IMG/VR virus record: IMGVR_UViG_3300032285_001348
Location: 1 to 39,003 of that record
Origin: a virus
Strand: one strand, 5' to 3'
Length of the DNA: 39,003 nucleotides
A model generated the notes under the pieces. That model was given only the letters and a program-made list of their open reading frames with translations. It was not told the DNA's origin and searched no databases. The position numbers were made by a program, and so were the translations under genes. Shown here one piece after another: positions 9,849 through 26,572 of the stretch (its first letter is position 1; every line of letters begins with the position of its first letter).

Positions 9849-11255
9849 TCAAACCCCTTTCGATTGACGATACTGCTTGACCGCGTTGCGTAACCCTGCC
9901 TGCGTGGTAGCCTTCTCGTCAAGTGCCAACGCCTGCGCTTGGTCAAGGGTGTCCTGCATCAAAACGCGGTGGCACATAACCGGAGCACCCTGACCCTGGC
10001 GGCGCACCCGAGCGTTGAACTGCTCATACAGGTCAAGGCTCCAGTTGAGGCCATACCAGACTAGGATGTGGCCGTTTTGCTGAAGGCCGTCAATCCCGTG
10101 ACCCATCGACGCCGGGTGGCCGATCATCAGGGCGCAGTCACCCGTCTTCCACCGGTGCATGGCGTTTGTTAGCGACGCCTCGCTCTTGCACTCGGTCAGG
10201 TTGATCGGACGCAATGCCTTGAATCGCTCCATGATCCGCTCGGCGTCTGACCGATAGGCATAGGCGCACAGCACCGGGCTACCCTGGGCCTCATCGATGA
10301 TGTCCTCCAGTGCATCCAGCTTGAGTTCGTGCACCGGCTCCCACAGCGGCATTCCGGCCACCGGGTACATGGCACCGTTGGAGAACTGCAAGCACTTGTT
10401 TGTCAGGGTCGCTTGGTTGAACGCCTCGACCTCTTTGCCGCTGTCAAGCACGAGGAAAAACTCTTTCTCTAGCTTGTCGTACTTGGCCCGCAACTCGTCA
10501 GGCATCTCGATCTCGACGTTGTTGACGATCAAGTCAGGCAGCGGGTTGTAGTCTTCTGCGCTCATCTCAAGCGTGATGTCGCCGATCAACTTCTTGATCG
10601 TGTCCTCGGTGTCCTCGTATGCCACTTCTTTGTAGGGGCCGACCTTGCGATAGAACCGGGTGCGGAATGCTGTCTTGCTGGTGCCAAGGCGCTCACCCCC
10701 ATCTACCACAAGGAACTGCCCGTGGAGGTCTTTGTAACCGTTGCTTGCCGGAGTGCCGGTAAGGCCGGTAGCCCAGTCGAACTTATCCGCGATCTTGCGA
10801 AACGCCTTAACCCGGTTCGTGGCGCTGTTTTTCATCTTTGATATCTCGTCCCAGATGATCCCGTTGAAGGGCATCGGGCGATCCTTCTTGACGAAGTAGG
10901 TCTGTAGCGTTTCGGACAACCAGCCGAGGTTCTCGTAGTTGATGAGGTACACATCAGCCGGACGCAGTAGAGCCCGTGTGCGCTGATCCTTGGTGCCCAC
11001 AACCATGCTGAATTGGAGGTGCTTGGTGTGCTCCCACTTGACAGCCTCCTGACGCCACACGAGTCGGATGACGCGGATCGGTGCGACGATGATGACGCCT
11101 CGCAGGAACTGAGTGCGGATCAGGTGCGCCAGCGTGGTCAGCGTGATGACGGTCTTACCTAAGCCCATGTCCAGCCACAGCATCGAGTGCGGATGCGTGG
11201 CTTGAAAGTTGACCGCCTTCTTCTGGTAGTCGTGGAGCAGGTTAGGGGTTAGCAT
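9849..11255 (-). CDS. SNF2-like superfamily 2 DNA helicase
   Basis: The protein has 468 aa. Motif I is LDMGLGKT (Lys34), the DEAD-box-type Walker B is WDEISK (Asp136-Glu137), motif III is LTGTPASN (165-172), and motif VI is the Arg-rich NARVRRQGQ near the C-terminus. HDYQKKAV at the start is the Q-like motif of the SNF2 group. Such small phage SNF2-like helicases lie in replication or recombination modules and may act in fork remodelling or branch migration. The start chosen is ATG at 11255, with AAAGGG upstream; it overlaps the methyltransferase end by 14 bases. A longer frame to 11339 would lie wholly in the upstream gene. Confidence 0.88.
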   Translation of the reverse strand: MLTPNLLHDYQKKAVNFQATHPHSMLWLDMGLGKTVITLTTLAHLIRTQFLRGVIIVAPIRVIRLVWRQEAVKWEHTKHLQFSMVVGTKDQRTRALLRPADVYLINYENLGWLSETLQTYFVKKDRPMPFNGIIWDEISKMKNSATNRVKAFRKIADKFDWATGLTGTPASNGYKDLHGQFLVVDGGERLGTSKTAFRTRFYRKVGPYKEVAYEDTEDTIKKLIGDITLEMSAEDYNPLPDLIVNNVEIEMPDELRAKYDKLEKEFFLVLDSGKEVEAFNQATLTNKCLQFSNGAMYPVAGMPLWEPVHELKLDALEDIIDEAQGSPVLCAYAYRSDAERIMERFKALRPINLTECKSEASLTNAMHRWKTGDCALMIGHPASMGHGIDGLQQNGHILVWYGLNWSLDLYEQFNARVRRQGQGAPVMCHRVLMQDTLDQAQALALDEKATTQAGLRNAVKQYRQSKGV

Positions 11256-12318
11256 CAATTGCCCTTTGAATACGAGCACCAATCCAGCGAACCACAGGCA
11301 CGGCCCAACTGTTGCCAAGCGCTTTGTACCTCGGCCCATCTGGGCATTTGTCTTTAATGTTGGTGTAGTTGTCTGGGAAGCCTTGTAGTCGTTCGCATTC
11401 GACGGGGGTTAGGCGACGAACTTGTGATTGCACAATGGCTTTTCCTTGATTCACCCATTGATTACTGCCCCATTTTTTACCATCAACCGCTTCAATTGTT
11501 GGGTATACGCAAGGCACAAATGTTTCTGACTCGGCATCCAAACGACCCATTGAACCATCATTTAGGCACATAGAAACGATTGCTTCAGTCTCTACTCGGT
11601 CGTTCCCTGTGCGACTGAACGGAGGGCCAGCAGTAACTGTGGGGGCAGCACTTTGCCGCGCTTCTCTGCTCGGCGCAATATCCCGGCGCAAGCCTTCGAA
11701 CTCAAAAAGAATCTCGGCGGGATTGATGTCTGCTCTAGCACTTGCGACAACGAACACACGCTTGCGTCGTTGGGCCACTCCGAAATATTGGGCATCGCAG
11801 ACCCGCCACGCGATTGTTCTTTGGGAACCAAACACACAACCAGCGTTTTGCCATTTGCCCCCTGGTGGTTGTAGTTCACCATCTTCTCCGGCAAGTCCCG
11901 CCAAAAAGCATCCGAATGCGTTGTCTTTGGTGTTGAGGACGCCGGGCACGTTTTCCCAGAAGATGACGGAAGGAGCCAATCCGGCAAGTGATCGTCTGAA
12001 GTCAATGACATTAGCAATCTCGCAAAAAGTTAAAGACAAGTTACCCCGCGCATCGTCCAAAGACTTACGCAAACCCGCAACGGAAAACGCCTGGCAAGGT
12101 GTTCCCCCACAAAATAAATCAGGAGCCTCAACTTCTCCGCTCAGGATGCGATCAGGCAGCGATGTCATGTCCCCATGATTAGGTACTGTGGGGTAGTGAT
12201 GTTGAAGAACTTCACAGGGAAACTTTTCAATTTCGCTGACCCACGCGGCTTTCCAACCCAGCGGCTCCCATGCAACGCTGGCGGCTTCAATGCCTGAACA
12301 AACAGAACCGAACCTCAT
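11242..12318 (-). CDS. DNA (cytosine-5) methyltransferase
   Basis: The protein has 358 aa. The C5 motifs are present in order: motif I FGSVCSGIEAAS (SAM binding), motif IV GGTPCQAFS with catalytic Cys75, motif VI WENVPG (Glu122), motif VIII QRRKRVF (183-189), motif IX RRLTPVECERLQGFP and motif X YKALGNSWAVPV. The target recognition region is about residues 195-285; its site cannot be read. No restriction endonuclease is next to it, so it is probably a solitary enzyme that protects phage DNA or marks it. The ATG at 12318 is preferred over a GTG at 12324 because GAGG is 7 bases upstream; it overlaps the VRR-NUC stop (ATGA). Confidence 0.93.
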   Translation of the reverse strand: MRFGSVCSGIEAASVAWEPLGWKAAWVSEIEKFPCEVLQHHYPTVPNHGDMTSLPDRILSGEVEAPDLFCGGTPCQAFSVAGLRKSLDDARGNLSLTFCEIANVIDFRRSLAGLAPSVIFWENVPGVLNTKDNAFGCFLAGLAGEDGELQPPGGKWQNAGCVFGSQRTIAWRVCDAQYFGVAQRRKRVFVVASARADINPAEILFEFEGLRRDIAPSREARQSAAPTVTAGPPFSRTGNDRVETEAIVSMCLNDGSMGRLDAESETFVPCVYPTIEAVDGKKWGSNQWVNQGKAIVQSQVRRLTPVECERLQGFPDNYTNIKDKCPDGPRYKALGNSWAVPVVRWIGARIQRAIDANP

Positions 12319-12602
12319 TGACACACCTCAATCATGTCGTCAACCATCCGCAGACCCGCGATCACATCGTCGATCACATAGACCACGACCTTGTACTGAC
12401 GCAGCCGATGATGCTCGCGCTCCTGGGCTTGCGTGGGCTTCTCTCCGCTGCGTTTGAACTCGCAAAAAAAGATTTTTCCACTCGGCAGCACAAACATTCG
12501 ATCAGGCACCGCAGCCCTTGCGGGACTGGTGAACTTGTAGACCATGAGCCCGCGTTCTTTGGCGTAAGCGCAGACCTTGGCTTCAATTTGCTTTTCGAGC
12601 AT
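12315..12602 (-). CDS. VRR-NUC domain nuclease
   Basis: The protein has 95 aa, the size of stand-alone VRR-NUC proteins. The PD-(D/E)xK core is visible: PDRMFVLPSGKIFFCEFK gives Pro33-Asp34-Arg35 and Glu48-x-Lys50, followed by the supporting KPTQAQEREHHRLR segment. Stand-alone phage VRR-NUC proteins are structure-specific nucleases that can cut branched DNA, so a role in resolving junctions or recombination is likely. It is coupled to the methyltransferase by a 4-base overlap, and begins inside the end of the small coiled-coil gene. Confidence 0.85.
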   Translation of the reverse strand: MLEKQIEAKVCAYAKERGLMVYKFTSPARAAVPDRMFVLPSGKIFFCEFKRSGEKPTQAQEREHHRLRQYKVVVYVIDDVIAGLRMVDDMIEVCQ

Positions 12603-21356: not shown

Positions 21357-21383
21357 AAGGCCCGGATCACCGGGCCTTTTCTT
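21357..21383. terminator. Intrinsic terminator between two accessory operons
   Basis: AAGGCCCGG-ATCA-CCGGGCCTT is a perfect 9-bp hairpin. On the plus strand it is followed by TTCTT for a full terminator. On the minus strand it directly follows the stop codon of the winged-helix gene, where it would end that operon, though the T-run is weaker. Confidence 0.75.
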
Positions 21384-21711
21384 ATGCTGCCAACTGGAGC
21401 AGCGGGTCGTTCATGGCCCGCCGCTTGTCTCTCAAGCGCTTCTGTCGCTCCGCTTGGGTCATCCGCACACGAGCGGCATCTTTGCCCTTACCGAGTTTGT
21501 AGATTTTGATGATGTGCCTTCCCCGCGCATCGGCCTCATAGCGCACGATGTGGGCCGCGCCAAAGCGATGCAGTTCCCGCGTGTACTGATAGATCGTGAC
21601 GAGGTGTAACCCTGTCTCATCTGCCATCTCTTGACAAGTGAGGTCACCCTGGAGCAACAGGGCGCACATCTGGGCATAGAGCACCGCGCCCATCTTGACC
21701 TGTTTACGCAT
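21382..21711 (-). CDS. Winged helix-turn-helix DNA-binding protein
   Basis: The protein has 109 aa. Residues about 10-60 form a winged HTH: QMCALLLQGDLTCQEMADET and GLHLVTIYQYTRELHRF are the HTH, and AAHIVRYEADARGRHIIKIY is the beta wing. The C-terminal 30 residues are strongly basic (TQAERQKRLRDKRRAMND). It could be a transcription regulator or a replication initiator-like factor; it lies in the accessory cluster rather than next to the polymerase. It overlaps the upstream gene by 8 bases and is followed directly by a terminator hairpin. Confidence 0.75.
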   Translation of the reverse strand: MRKQVKMGAVLYAQMCALLLQGDLTCQEMADETGLHLVTIYQYTRELHRFGAAHIVRYEADARGRHIIKIYKLGKGKDAARVRMTQAERQKRLRDKRRAMNDPLLQLAA

Positions 21712-22292: not shown

Positions 22293-22462
22293 TTTTTCAA
22301 TTCTTTCTCGGGATAAATTGATTTTTGTACATGAGTCAATTCCTTAGCGAAAAGCAGCGTTCCAGTTTCCTCAAGGTCGATCGGATGAAAGAACACAACT
22401 GAGAGCCATGCAAGGGTGAGGCCCAGGACAAGCCCGCAGACAAAACCGATAGCGAATGTCAT
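22289..22462 (-). CDS. 57-aa single-pass membrane microprotein
   Basis: The protein has 57 aa. Residues 3-25 form one membrane helix (FAIGFVCGLVLGLTLAWLSV), followed by a polar tail with ELTHVQKSIYPEKELKK. CTGGAG lies 9 bases before the ATG, inside a weaker copy of the leader repeat shared by the cluster (22471-22482). Function is unknown; its size and topology recall Rz/spanin-like or superinfection-exclusion peptides, but there is no direct evidence for either. Confidence 0.65.
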   Translation of the reverse strand: MTFAIGFVCGLVLGLTLAWLSVVFFHPIDLEETGTLLFAKELTHVQKSIYPEKELKK

Positions 22463-22519: not shown

Positions 22520-22840
22520 TCAATTGGCGGTCAATGATTCGGGATTTTTCGGCATGACCAAATCGCCTCGCGGTTTGCGCCCACGTTTAGCGGGCACCTT
22601 GGGTTCACCCAGTGGCGGGATAAACGATTCGTGCAGGGCGGGTGCGAGCGCTTCGATGGTGCCCAGTACGTCGACCAGTCGCAGCACCGATGCGTTGGGT
22701 GACCGTTCACCGGTCACCCACTTGTGGAACGTGTACAGGGGGACGCCGAGGTAAGCTGCGGCGCGGGGTTCATCAAGGGACAAGCGGGTCATCAGGGCTG
22801 CGAATTCGGGCCTGGGTGCGGGTTTGATAGAAGTGGACAT
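22520..22840 (-). CDS. Helix-turn-helix regulator with AT-hook-like tail
   Basis: The protein has 106 aa. Residues about 23-60 match a Cro/XRE-type helix-turn-helix (EPRAAAYLGVPLYTFHKWVT, then GERSPNASVLRLVDVLG). Near the C-terminus, residues 85-92 read KRGRKPRG, very like an AT-hook (core RGR-P), which binds the minor groove of AT-rich DNA. It is the best candidate in the genome for the protein that acts on the ACCC-N3-GGGT sites. It follows a strong terminator (22861-22890) after the upstream genes, and the leader has a diverged copy of the repeat (22848-22860). Confidence 0.7.
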   Translation of the reverse strand: MSTSIKPAPRPEFAALMTRLSLDEPRAAAYLGVPLYTFHKWVTGERSPNASVLRLVDVLGTIEALAPALHESFIPPLGEPKVPAKRGRKPRGDLVMPKNPESLTAN

Positions 22841-22860: not shown

Positions 22861-22890
22861 AAAAAAGCCCGCCAGGGGGATCCTGGCGGG
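22861..22890 (-). terminator. Intrinsic terminator upstream of the HTH gene
   Basis: On the minus strand CCCGCCAGG-ATCCC-CCTGGCGGG is a perfect 9-bp hairpin followed by CTTTTTT. It would stop transcription coming from the genes at 22912-25424, 20 bases before the start of the helix-turn-helix gene, so that gene should depend on readthrough or on antitermination. Confidence 0.85.
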
Positions 22891-24191: not shown

Positions 24192-24533
24192 TTAATCGAC
24201 GGCCTTGACGTATCCGTCAGCGTCAATGACAACACGGCTGCCGTCGAAAAACTCGTAAACACCATCTGCGACGAGTTCAAAGCGCTCGTGTTCGGAATAG
24301 AAAAAGTCTTCGGGTGTAACGTGCAAGTGCCCATTGATGTATTTATCAGCGATTGTACCGACCCGAAACTCAGATCCGCTCACATAGATCAGCGAACCAT
24401 CAAAGAGCTCGTAGACAGTCGCCTCCCCGTCCCAGTCTTGAACGAGTGAGCACGAGTGATGATCGGCGAGTCGCTGGGCTTGTGCTTTAGCGCCATGCTC
24501 GTACAGCGCGACAATGTTTTCTGCTTGGGACAT
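24192..24533 (-). CDS. Small acidic accessory protein, function unknown
   Basis: The protein has 113 aa and is acidic. An N-terminal helix (AENIVALYEHGAKAQAQRLA) is followed by two related beta units: ATVYELFDGSLIYVSGSEF at about 38-56 and DGVYEFFDGSRVVIDADGY at about 90-108. Both carry the pattern Y-E-L/F-F-D-G-S, so the second half looks like an internal duplication. It has the leader repeat with GGAG 8 bases before the ATG. No known family. Confidence 0.65.
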   Translation of the reverse strand: MSQAENIVALYEHGAKAQAQRLADHHSCSLVQDWDGEATVYELFDGSLIYVSGSEFRVGTIADKYINGHLHVTPEDFFYSEHERFELVADGVYEFFDGSRVVIDADGYVKAVD

Positions 24534-24581
24534 AGTAAGTGCTCCAGTGGGTTAACGATTACAGGGACGAGTAACTATAGA

Positions 24582-24650
24582 TCAATCACCCGCTGGGTGA
24601 TTGAATTTGTTTCTATGGACAGGCCAGGCCTCATAGGGAAATCCTATGGG
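24582..24650. other. Structured intergenic region with nested hairpins
   Basis: TCAATCACCC-GCT-GGGTGATTGA (24582-24604) is a perfect 10-bp hairpin whose centre is a copy of the ACCC-N3-GGGT palindrome. A second set follows: CTATG (24613-24617) can pair with CATAG (24632-24636), which can also pair with CCTATG (24643-24648), so two folds compete. A short AGGCC-A-GGCCT palindrome lies between. It separates the 70-aa gene from the 113-aa gene, and could act as an attenuator or terminator. Confidence 0.6.
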
Positions 24651-25132: not shown

Positions 25133-25175
25133 GATGAGTGCTCCAATGGGTTAACGATTACAGGGGCGGGGTGAA

Positions 25176-25424
25176 TCAGTAGCCGAACATCCAGATGGGC
25201 AGGGCTTGTTTGCGAATCAGGCTGGCACGGGTTTTGGGGTGAAGGAACGCCACATCCATCCACTTGTAGTGCGCTTCGATGGCGACATCGTGGGCGAGCA
25301 TGGCATCTTGGGCGAGCTTGTCGGCGCCGCCGAAAGTGGAGGCCATCAGAGCGTGGCGGGCGAGGGCGAGCTTCGCAGCATGGCGAGCTGCTTCTGCTTT
25401 GGTGAGGCATTCGGTTTTGGTCAT
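25176..25424 (-). CDS. Small helical accessory protein, first gene of the cluster
   Basis: The protein has 82 aa and is rich in Ala, with long helices (CLTKAEAARHAAKLALARHA, GADKLAQDAMLAHDVAIEAH) and a C-terminal basic segment with WMFGY. It starts five bases after the GGAG of a leader-repeat copy (25430-25440), a shorter distance than elsewhere. It is the first gene after the promoter at 25458-25485, so it should be the most strongly expressed early product. No family recognised. Confidence 0.65.
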   Translation of the reverse strand: MTKTECLTKAEAARHAAKLALARHALMASTFGGADKLAQDAMLAHDVAIEAHYKWMDVAFLHPKTRASLIRKQALPIWMFGY

Positions 25425-25457
25425 CAGTGCTCCAGTAGGTGCGTTGTTGAAGTCTCA

Positions 25458-25485
25458 ATGATACCCAGTGGGTTGCACGAGTCAA
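25458..25485 (-). promoter_or_regulatory. Strong candidate promoter for the accessory cluster with an embedded operator
   Basis: On the minus strand TTGACT (25485-25480) and TATCAT (25463-25458) stand 16 bases apart, each matching the sigma70 consensus at 5 of 6 positions. The spacer holds ACCCACTGGGT (25473-25463), a copy of the repeated palindrome, so a protein bound there would block RNA polymerase. The first start codon, 25424, is 34 bases downstream of the -10 box. Confidence 0.7.
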
Positions 25486-25985
25486 GAAATCAATTCCAAT
25501 CAAACCCAGCGGGTCAATAGGAATTCTCTATCCCACTGGGTCTAGTGCGTTGGGGGTGTGACAACTGCACTAGCGGCGAGGGGTAGGGTTTTGAGATTCT
25601 GAAAAATCTGTGCTTTTCAAAAAAGTCGTGGGACAAACCTAGAACCCGCGGAAGCCGGTTGTCACACTCGCCGCCCTGAACCCACTGGAGTCGTTCCAGC
25701 GGGTCAATAGCACCCGCTGGGTCAATGGTTCACTTACCCGCTGGGTTCCCGAGTACCCGCTGGGTTGAGTGCTCATCCGCTGCGTTGCACCACGACCCAG
25801 CGGGTTTCCGTTGTGCGTTGCACCACGACCCAGCGGGTTTCCGTTGTGCGTTGCACCACGGCCTGGGGCGACCTGGATTCCCTGGCCGACGGGGGCCGGG
25901 TAGGGCCGGCGCAACTGGCCTGCGGCTACGGTGGCACCACGAACCATTTTTTAAATTTTTCAAAATAAGCAGTTACCCACCGGGT
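25463..25985. repeat. Array of ACCC-N3-GGGT palindromes
   Basis: Copies of ACCC-N3-GGGT (spacers AGT, AGC, GCT or ACC) are at 25463-25473, 25504-25514, 25712-25722, 25736-25746, 25755-25765, 25795-25805, 25828-25838 and 25975-25985. One-base variants are at 25531-25541 (TCCC), and weaker ones at 25694-25704 and 25775-25785. Another full copy is at 24588-24598. The flank GGGTCAAT is kept at three sites. The arms are short but the repeat count and the clustering in a non-coding region are far above chance. Confidence 0.85.
25781..25860. repeat. 33-bp tandem repeat, two and a half copies
   Basis: The unit at 25781-25813, beginning TGCGTTGCACCACGACCCAG, is repeated exactly at 25814-25846, and a third, diverging copy begins at 25847. 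Each full unit carries one ACCCAGCGGGT palindrome. Confidence 0.9.
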
Positions 25986-26038
25986 TCCGAAATCCCATTA
26001 ACACACCGCCGGTCAGTTATGCTAGGATCAGTGCCACT

Positions 26039-26572
26039 ATGGAAAAGCCCATCGCACAATCCATAGGCGCAGATGTATCGCTGCCAGACTGGCTTACTGC
26101 CGGTGACCCTGCGCCTATCAAGCCCTCTCGGGAGGCTAGAGTGCTTGTGTTTCAACAGTTTGAGACTGTCTTCCCTCGCGTGATTGACCTGATCGCATCG
26201 GGCTACACGCTGACCAGCGCGGTCAAGGAAGTGCCCTACGGGATTGATCTCGGAGCGTTCACCCGCTGGATCAAAAAAGACCCCACGCGCAACGAGTTGT
26301 ACAAAGAGGCCAAGGAGATCCGCACCGAGGCCTGGGCGGGTAAGGTCATCGAACACGCCACCGCTGAGGACTCGTTTGAGGATGTAGCGCGATCCAAGCT
26401 GATCGTCGATGCCTACAAGTGGCTGATGGCTGCGGACAATCGCAAGACTTACGGCCAATCGACCCAGATCGAGTTGGGTGGGCAGATTAGTATCTTGGGA
26501 GCGTTGGCTGCGGCTAACGAGCGCACACTCGAACTGGTTGAGGATGTGACACCTCGCCTTGAAAACGACTAA
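26039..26572 (+). CDS. Terminase small subunit
   Basis: The protein has 177 aa. Residues about 55-80 (IASGYTLTSAVKEVPYGIDL, then GAFTRWIKKD) form the helix-turn-helix that recognises the packaging site, followed by a long helix (YKEAKEIRTEAWAGKVIEHA) for ring assembly and a C-terminal helix ending in charged residues that contact the large subunit. This order and the place directly before the large subunit (TAATG overlap) are typical. AGGA lies 11 bases upstream. It is the first late gene on the plus strand after the control region. Confidence 0.82.
   Translation: MEKPIAQSIGADVSLPDWLTAGDPAPIKPSREARVLVFQQFETVFPRVIDLIASGYTLTSAVKEVPYGIDLGAFTRWIKKDPTRNELYKEAKEIRTEAWAGKVIEHATAEDSFEDVARSKLIVDAYKWLMAADNRKTYGQSTQIELGGQISILGALAAANERTLELVEDVTPRLEND

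Follow-up and report, generated by a model that had tools for sequence, protein, structure and literature searches.

The control region upstream of terS

The DNA analysed here, which we refer to as the window, is a stretch of 39,003 nucleotides from a virus contig whose ends are identical over 123 bp. It encodes P22/Sf6-like packaging functions and a prim-pol replication module, and the nearest named genome is DSL-LC05. Genes for a C5 cytosine methylase and an SNF2-type helicase (11242-12324 and 9849-11339) adjoin each other on the minus strand. The region between positions 25425 and 26038 divides a block of minus-strand genes from the plus-strand genes terS and terL, the latter starting at 26572 (Table 1).

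This region contains an array of 11-bp palindromes. All eight full copies counted in the original prediction are exact matches to ACCCNNNGGGT, and an additional site with one mismatch lies within the same array. The region is expected to hold 0.03 exact sites under an order-1 model, and in the entire window 11 exact copies of ACCC-N3-GGGT are found versus 0.48 expected, a count reached by none of 100 dinucleotide-shuffled sequences. The sites are clustered in the control region rather than spread evenly over coding DNA: only three exact copies lie outside the array, at 24588, 23083 and 3798. The first of these, also predicted originally, is part of a 23-bp palindrome, while the other two are both located inside ORFs and are probably due to chance. 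The motif can be refined to ACCC-R-N-Y-GGGT, with ACCCGCTGGGT / ACCCAGCGGGT being its commonest version (eight copies in the window). The array sites are found in both orientations and are irregularly spaced (R about 0.1), and two of them belong to a 33-bp tandem repeat at 25781-25879. In the window and in its relatives the flank GGGTCAAT reads as ATTGACCC on the minus strand, and it is possible that the latter is a -35 hexamer overlapping the palindrome.

Table 1. Features of the control region and of its putative regulator in window coordinates; operators and promoters are predicted
Feature	Position	Strand	Remarks
Leftward promoter	25458..25485	-	-35 TTGACT (25485-25480), 16-bp spacer, -10 TATCAT (25463-25458); would read into 25424 and the minus-strand genes
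Operator ACCCAGTGGGT	25463..25473	-	In the spacer of the leftward promoter, overlaps first base of -10; same placement in most relatives
Second operator	25504..25514	-	Upstream of the leftward promoter; ATTGACC flank
Variant operator TCCCACTGGGT	25531..25541		One mismatch
Middle-array operator	25712..25722	+	
Middle-array operator	25736..25746	+	
Middle-array operator	25755..25765	+	
Operator in 33-bp repeat, unit 1	25795..25805	-	
Operator in 33-bp repeat, unit 2	25828..25838	-	
terS-proximal operator ACCCACCGGGT	25975..25985	+	37 bp before the terS -10
Rightward terS promoter	25998..26028	+	-35-like TTAACA (25998-26003), extended -10 TGC-TAGGAT (26020-26028), 10 nt before the terS ATG
terS	26039..26572	+	Small terminase, Sf6 type; first late gene
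Xre-type regulator	22520..22840	-	106 aa; proposed array binder
23-bp palindrome TCAATCACCCGCTGGGTGATTGA	24582..24604		Contains an operator; upstream of gene 24192-24533
Conserved block A	25558..25665		GTGACA...TGTCAC; kept with or without the array
Conserved block B	25860..25970		G-rich stretch, GGCACCACGA, AT-rich tract

Several other elements are present in this part of the window. Block A, which is about 110 bp long and bounded by GTGACA and TGTCAC, is conserved in 35 diverse relatives; no conserved RNA fold was found in it beyond the terminal repeat, and it may belong to replication or packaging. As for the array, an RNA element was considered and rejected, Rfam returning just one sub-threshold match of the miRNA type. 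Minus-strand genes share a AACCCACTGGAGCACT-like leader (24535-24550, 25134-25149 and 25423-25438), which contains the ribosome site and resembles half of an operator. A terminator-like hairpin at 22868-22890 is located directly upstream of the gene for the proposed regulator, and the expression of this gene may therefore be more complex than outlined below.

The array and an Xre-type protein in related phages

The original prediction suggested looking for the array in related phages, and it does recur: most of the relatives collected by TerL similarity have it at the corresponding position upstream of terS, and nearly all loci that were fetched via the regulator and cover the region contain it. 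In complete relatives, among the matches listed, the motif is concentrated in the control region with few copies elsewhere. The evidence is comparative throughout, and most of the loci compared are metagenomic fragments, filtered for near-duplicates on the basis of shared k-mers. The distance classes, recognition-helix groups and promoter scoring described below were refined during the work, and the numbers describe the final choices rather than tests set in advance.

Eight proteins of the window were tested for co-occurrence with the array, including all three helix-turn-helix (HTH) proteins originally named as candidates for binding to it. Only one of the three stood up: the 22520-22840 protein is present in 44 of 44 array-type loci and in 0 of 40 loci without the array, a contrast that largely corresponds to one phylogenetic split. 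The 21382-21711 and 16997-17200 proteins are found in 0 and 3 of the 44 loci, respectively; these two and four accessory proteins were rejected as binders, being missing from nearly all array-bearing relatives, and altogether the other seven proteins either fail to follow the array or do not discriminate array loci. Neither the regulator nor the array occurs in a sister TerL clade, L168-L247, for which the TerL of L082 served as query. Since the overall contrast largely reflects a single split, two loci, L004 and L014, are particularly useful: their TerL is 86-88% identical to that of the window and more than 4.5 kb of upstream sequence is covered, and they contain neither regulator nor array. 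They appear to be close relatives that lost both. The same two loci retain the conserved terS start region without the array, which led us to reject TerS as the binder. We propose that the palindromes are the operators of the 22520-22840 protein.

An AlphaFold2 model of this protein (pLDDT 84.5) contains helices at residues 10-19, 23-30, 34-42, 49-64 and 66-70, a predicted five-helix bundle with an HTH formed by helices 2 and 3, as is characteristic of the Xre/Cro-CI fold. Foldseek matched it to Xre proteins with a probability near 1 but with E-values above 0.04, and the nearest BFVD models carry the name HTH_XRE; matches to phosphonate synthases were taken as spurious. In profile searches the window protein scores 13.3 bits with HTH_31 (cut-off 27), while an E-value of 0.01 or better is reached by 9 of 31 family members for HTH_31 and by 9 for HTH_3. 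Matches in the PDB, with weak E-values, include HigA2, MqsA and Aca2. By both fold and profile the protein is nearest to Xre antitoxins, MqsA among them, and the PDB sequence closest to the family profile is that of MqsA (3fmy, E 0.0012). The alignment covers just the C-terminal HTH (residues 74-123 of the 3gn5 chain), and the N-terminal zinc-binding domain of MqsA has no counterpart in it. The operator of MqsA is 5'-AACCT(N)3AGGTT-3', with ACCT TGC AGGT found at rpoS (PMC4894380). The putative operator ACCC-N3-GGGT has the same 4-3-4 arrangement over 11 bp as ACCT-N3-AGGT of the Escherichia coli protein, with one base changed per half-site; the MqsA operators are single or paired, whereas here there is an array.

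Different recognition helices are accompanied by different repeats, although the groups are small and partly nested in the phylogeny. The PVFT.RKW helix is found beside ACCC-N3-GGGT, QTTARKW and ESTARKW (L075 and L251) beside GCAC-N3-GTGC, and KITTWRNW (L040, L253 and L254) beside TCAATGGGT. The helix V[TK]SALYxW (L260-L264) accompanies 9-14 copies of the half-palindrome TTCACA-N-TGT; an exact operator TCAC-N3-GTGA was also considered for these loci and dropped, as it is present in 0 copies and the real repeat is the looser half-palindrome.

Predicted promoters on the two sides of the array

For the leftward direction, the best promoter anchored at a palindrome was scored in 75 distinct control regions, the score being maximised over sites and offsets both in these regions and in a control set of random positions that was drawn once. 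A score of at least 11 out of 13 was reached by 56 of the 75 loci versus 1 of 91 random positions, and in 49 of the 59 loci scoring at least 10 the -10 element starts no more than 1 bp from the end of the palindrome. In most relatives the palindrome lies exactly between TTGACA and TATAAT or TAGAAT separated by a 16-17-bp spacer; in a second group it overlaps the -35 element, which then reads TTGACCC, and the spacer is 18-19 bp long. Between positions 22400 and 26600 of the window the sole promoter-like match is TTGACT-N16-TATCAT, with the palindrome inside. An operator that fills the spacer between the -35 and -10 elements is in a blocking position, and its occupation would therefore be expected to repress the leftward promoter, which, together with the genes behind it, we infer to be early.

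On the other side of the array, just 9-10 nt separate the terS -10 element from the ATG in nearly all relatives, and the terS mRNA is therefore probably almost leaderless. Measured from the last operator, the distance to the -10 element falls into three classes, 26-28 bp (n=14), 36-38 bp (n=28) and 46-48 bp (n=15), which account for 57 of 59 distinct promoters, with none falling between the classes. The two loci that at first seemed to be out of phase, L026 and L052, have a nearer one-mismatch site in register, at 36 and 47 bp; once these two are reassigned by eye, all 59 distinct promoters are in register. The phase coherence at 10.5 bp is 0.91; the -10 element was placed by scoring within 8 offsets, a procedure that could produce small shifts but not classes 10 bp apart. 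Among loci with regulator variants, L260, L264, L040 and L148 are in register, as are the imperfect sites of L012/L013 and L042, whereas the candidate terS-proximal site of L075 and L251, at about 30-32 bp, is not (all counted by eye).

On the TerL tree at least 25 changes of distance class are counted, with no clustering, and the spacers between operator and terS promoter form 38 sequence families. These observations mean that the arrangement is not one inherited cassette, although promoter cassettes may have spread by recombination, so that independent insertions need not account for all 25 changes. Since the class changed so many times and always in register, the helical phase is under selection. 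The constraint is relative to the promoter, as neighbouring middle sites are unphased (R of 0.11 versus 0.91 at the promoter) and only weak phasing (0.48) is seen between the terS-proximal site and the site next to it. Looping or cooperative stacking between array sites was rejected for the same lack of phased spacing.

Such phasing would point to a contact between the bound protein and RNA polymerase, not to the sign of its effect, and a phased repressor is possible. Activation is most likely, since the rightward -35 elements are mostly poor whereas the leftward promoters are near-consensus. A perfect TTGACA at 19 bp is present in some terS promoters, which may need no help. In the relatives, T (74%) followed by A or T is favoured 4-5 nt downstream of the terS-proximal operator (25990-25991 in the window), which is not seen at the middle sites.

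A putative early-to-late switch and its alternatives

As expected of a dual switch, one site is placed to block a near-consensus, presumably early promoter, and another precedes the late promoter with its helical face fixed. The blocking position on the left and the phasing on the right together suggest that one phage-encoded Xre-type protein represses the leftward early promoter and, acting on RNA polymerase, activates terS and the late genes through the array. We assign this reading, including the recognition of the palindromes by the 22520-22840 protein, a probability of about 0.75; it agrees with the original proposal of a set of operators between minus-strand accessory and plus-strand late genes, which both regulator co-occurrence and promoter geometry support. 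Upon infection, the leftward promoter would fire and produce the accessory proteins and the regulator, which is encoded in the same minus-strand block and presumably transcribed from this promoter. As the regulator accumulates, it would bind ACCC-R-N-Y-GGGT as a symmetric dimer; at the site inside the leftward promoter it would block RNA polymerase, leading to early shut-off and autorepression. At the terS-proximal site, whose helical face is fixed relative to the mostly weak promoter downstream of it, the bound protein would touch RNA polymerase and thereby switch on the genes for packaging and structure. The probable role of the middle sites is to tune the timing, either by buffering free protein or by blocking transcription.

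Alternatively, the protein may be a CI/C2-like lysogeny repressor of both divergent promoters, with the array being an immunity region. The operator in the leftward spacer, the small size and Xre type of the protein, and the name "repressor protein C" given to its homologue by the authors of the DSL-LC05 report would all fit this, and a repressor that contacts the polymerase would fit the phasing. However, neither an integrase nor a partition gene was recognised among the larger ORFs scanned (not every small or structural-region ORF belongs to this set), 84,980 genomes contain no clear prophage apart from one doubtful 3-kb MAG contig, and DSL-LC05 is predicted to be virulent (PMC10611076). We consider lysogeny control unlikely, and the lack of a recognised integrase and of a clear prophage makes an early-to-late switch the likelier of the two. 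A plasmid-prophage was rejected, the plasmid matches to TerL being distant relatives with about 36% identity.

The original prediction had also offered iterons of a replication origin, whose initiator would bind the sites while the AT-rich 25946-25975 stretch served as the unwinding element. Clustered repeats, the 33-bp tandem repeat and the AT-rich tract are what such an origin would contain, but the regular or helically spaced direct repeats typical of iterons were not found, the sites lying in both orientations and the middle ones being irregular and unphased. Moreover, the sites are placed on promoters and track a gene of transcription-factor type, GC skew has no extreme here, and relatives without the array retain the neighbouring conserved blocks, L004, L014 and L070 having block A. 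Iterons are not needed to explain the array and this reading is very improbable; an origin may lie elsewhere in the control region. Still less credible is a packaging site (pac or cos) bound by the small terminase, for which the position directly upstream of terS would speak, as would lambda, where repeated terminase sites lie beside the small-subunit gene: L004 and L014 combine a close TerL and a conserved terS neighbourhood with no array, different Xre recognition helices come with different motifs, and phasing to a -10 element would be unexpected. Finally, the region is G+C-rich and carries a local tandem duplication, as a functionless low-complexity repeat might, but the excess of sites over expectation and conservation at a fixed place over many loci, together with phasing, already refute a chance origin, which has a negligible probability.

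The proposed switch is of an ordinary kind and resembles known systems in part. Early proteins of the Bacillus phage phi29 bound between early and late promoters (A2b, A2c and A3) are reported to repress the former and activate the latter (PMC3100819). The proposed regulator would resemble phi29 p4 with p6 in combining early repression and late activation. Whereas p4, together with p6, occupies few sites, the present case involves an Xre-type protein, 5-10 palindromes and naturally occurring spacing variants that differ by one helical turn. CI/C2 and Cro of lambda and P22 are also Xre-type proteins, with palindromic operators overlapping divergent promoters, autoregulation, and activation by contact with the polymerase; in our case no integrase is recognised, the sites are many and dispersed, and the phased one adjoins terS. 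The P2 Ogr and P4 Delta activators, zinc-binding proteins of another fold, act from a site at about -55 of late phage promoters, compared to about -45, -55 or -65 here, as estimated from the -10 element. The stoperators of cluster A mycobacteriophages are many copies of one repressor site, but they are asymmetric and genome-wide, whereas those described here are palindromes restricted to a single control region.

The form of the switch has, as far as the open-access literature goes, not been described, and it is unusually well documented by dozens of related viruses. Sequence alone was enough to find the regulator together with its putative operators, in phages of which almost all are known only through metagenomes. 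With about 60 distinct late promoters in which the site has been moved by whole helix turns, and with several recognition-helix variants beside altered operators, the relatives constitute a natural library. It makes testable how strict the distance constraint between an activator and the polymerase is, and in what way the specificities of an HTH protein and of its operators shift in concert. A further, rather doubtful idea is that the array works as a genome-copy timer, about ten sites per replicated genome titrating the regulator, with a private operator/helix pair in each lineage. If so, the leftward and the phased terS promoters would respond to phage copy number, and private pairs would keep co-infecting relatives from cross-regulating each other.

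Other apparent arrays were seen upstream of terL. L043 has eight copies of TGAC-N6-GTCA, on a contig whose length is insufficient to show a regulator. In L082 and L168, members of the sister clade, the unrelated palindrome GTTTA-N2-TAAAC is present in 6-7 copies without an Xre protein, and in L082 a gene annotated as a DnaA-like HTH lies near it.
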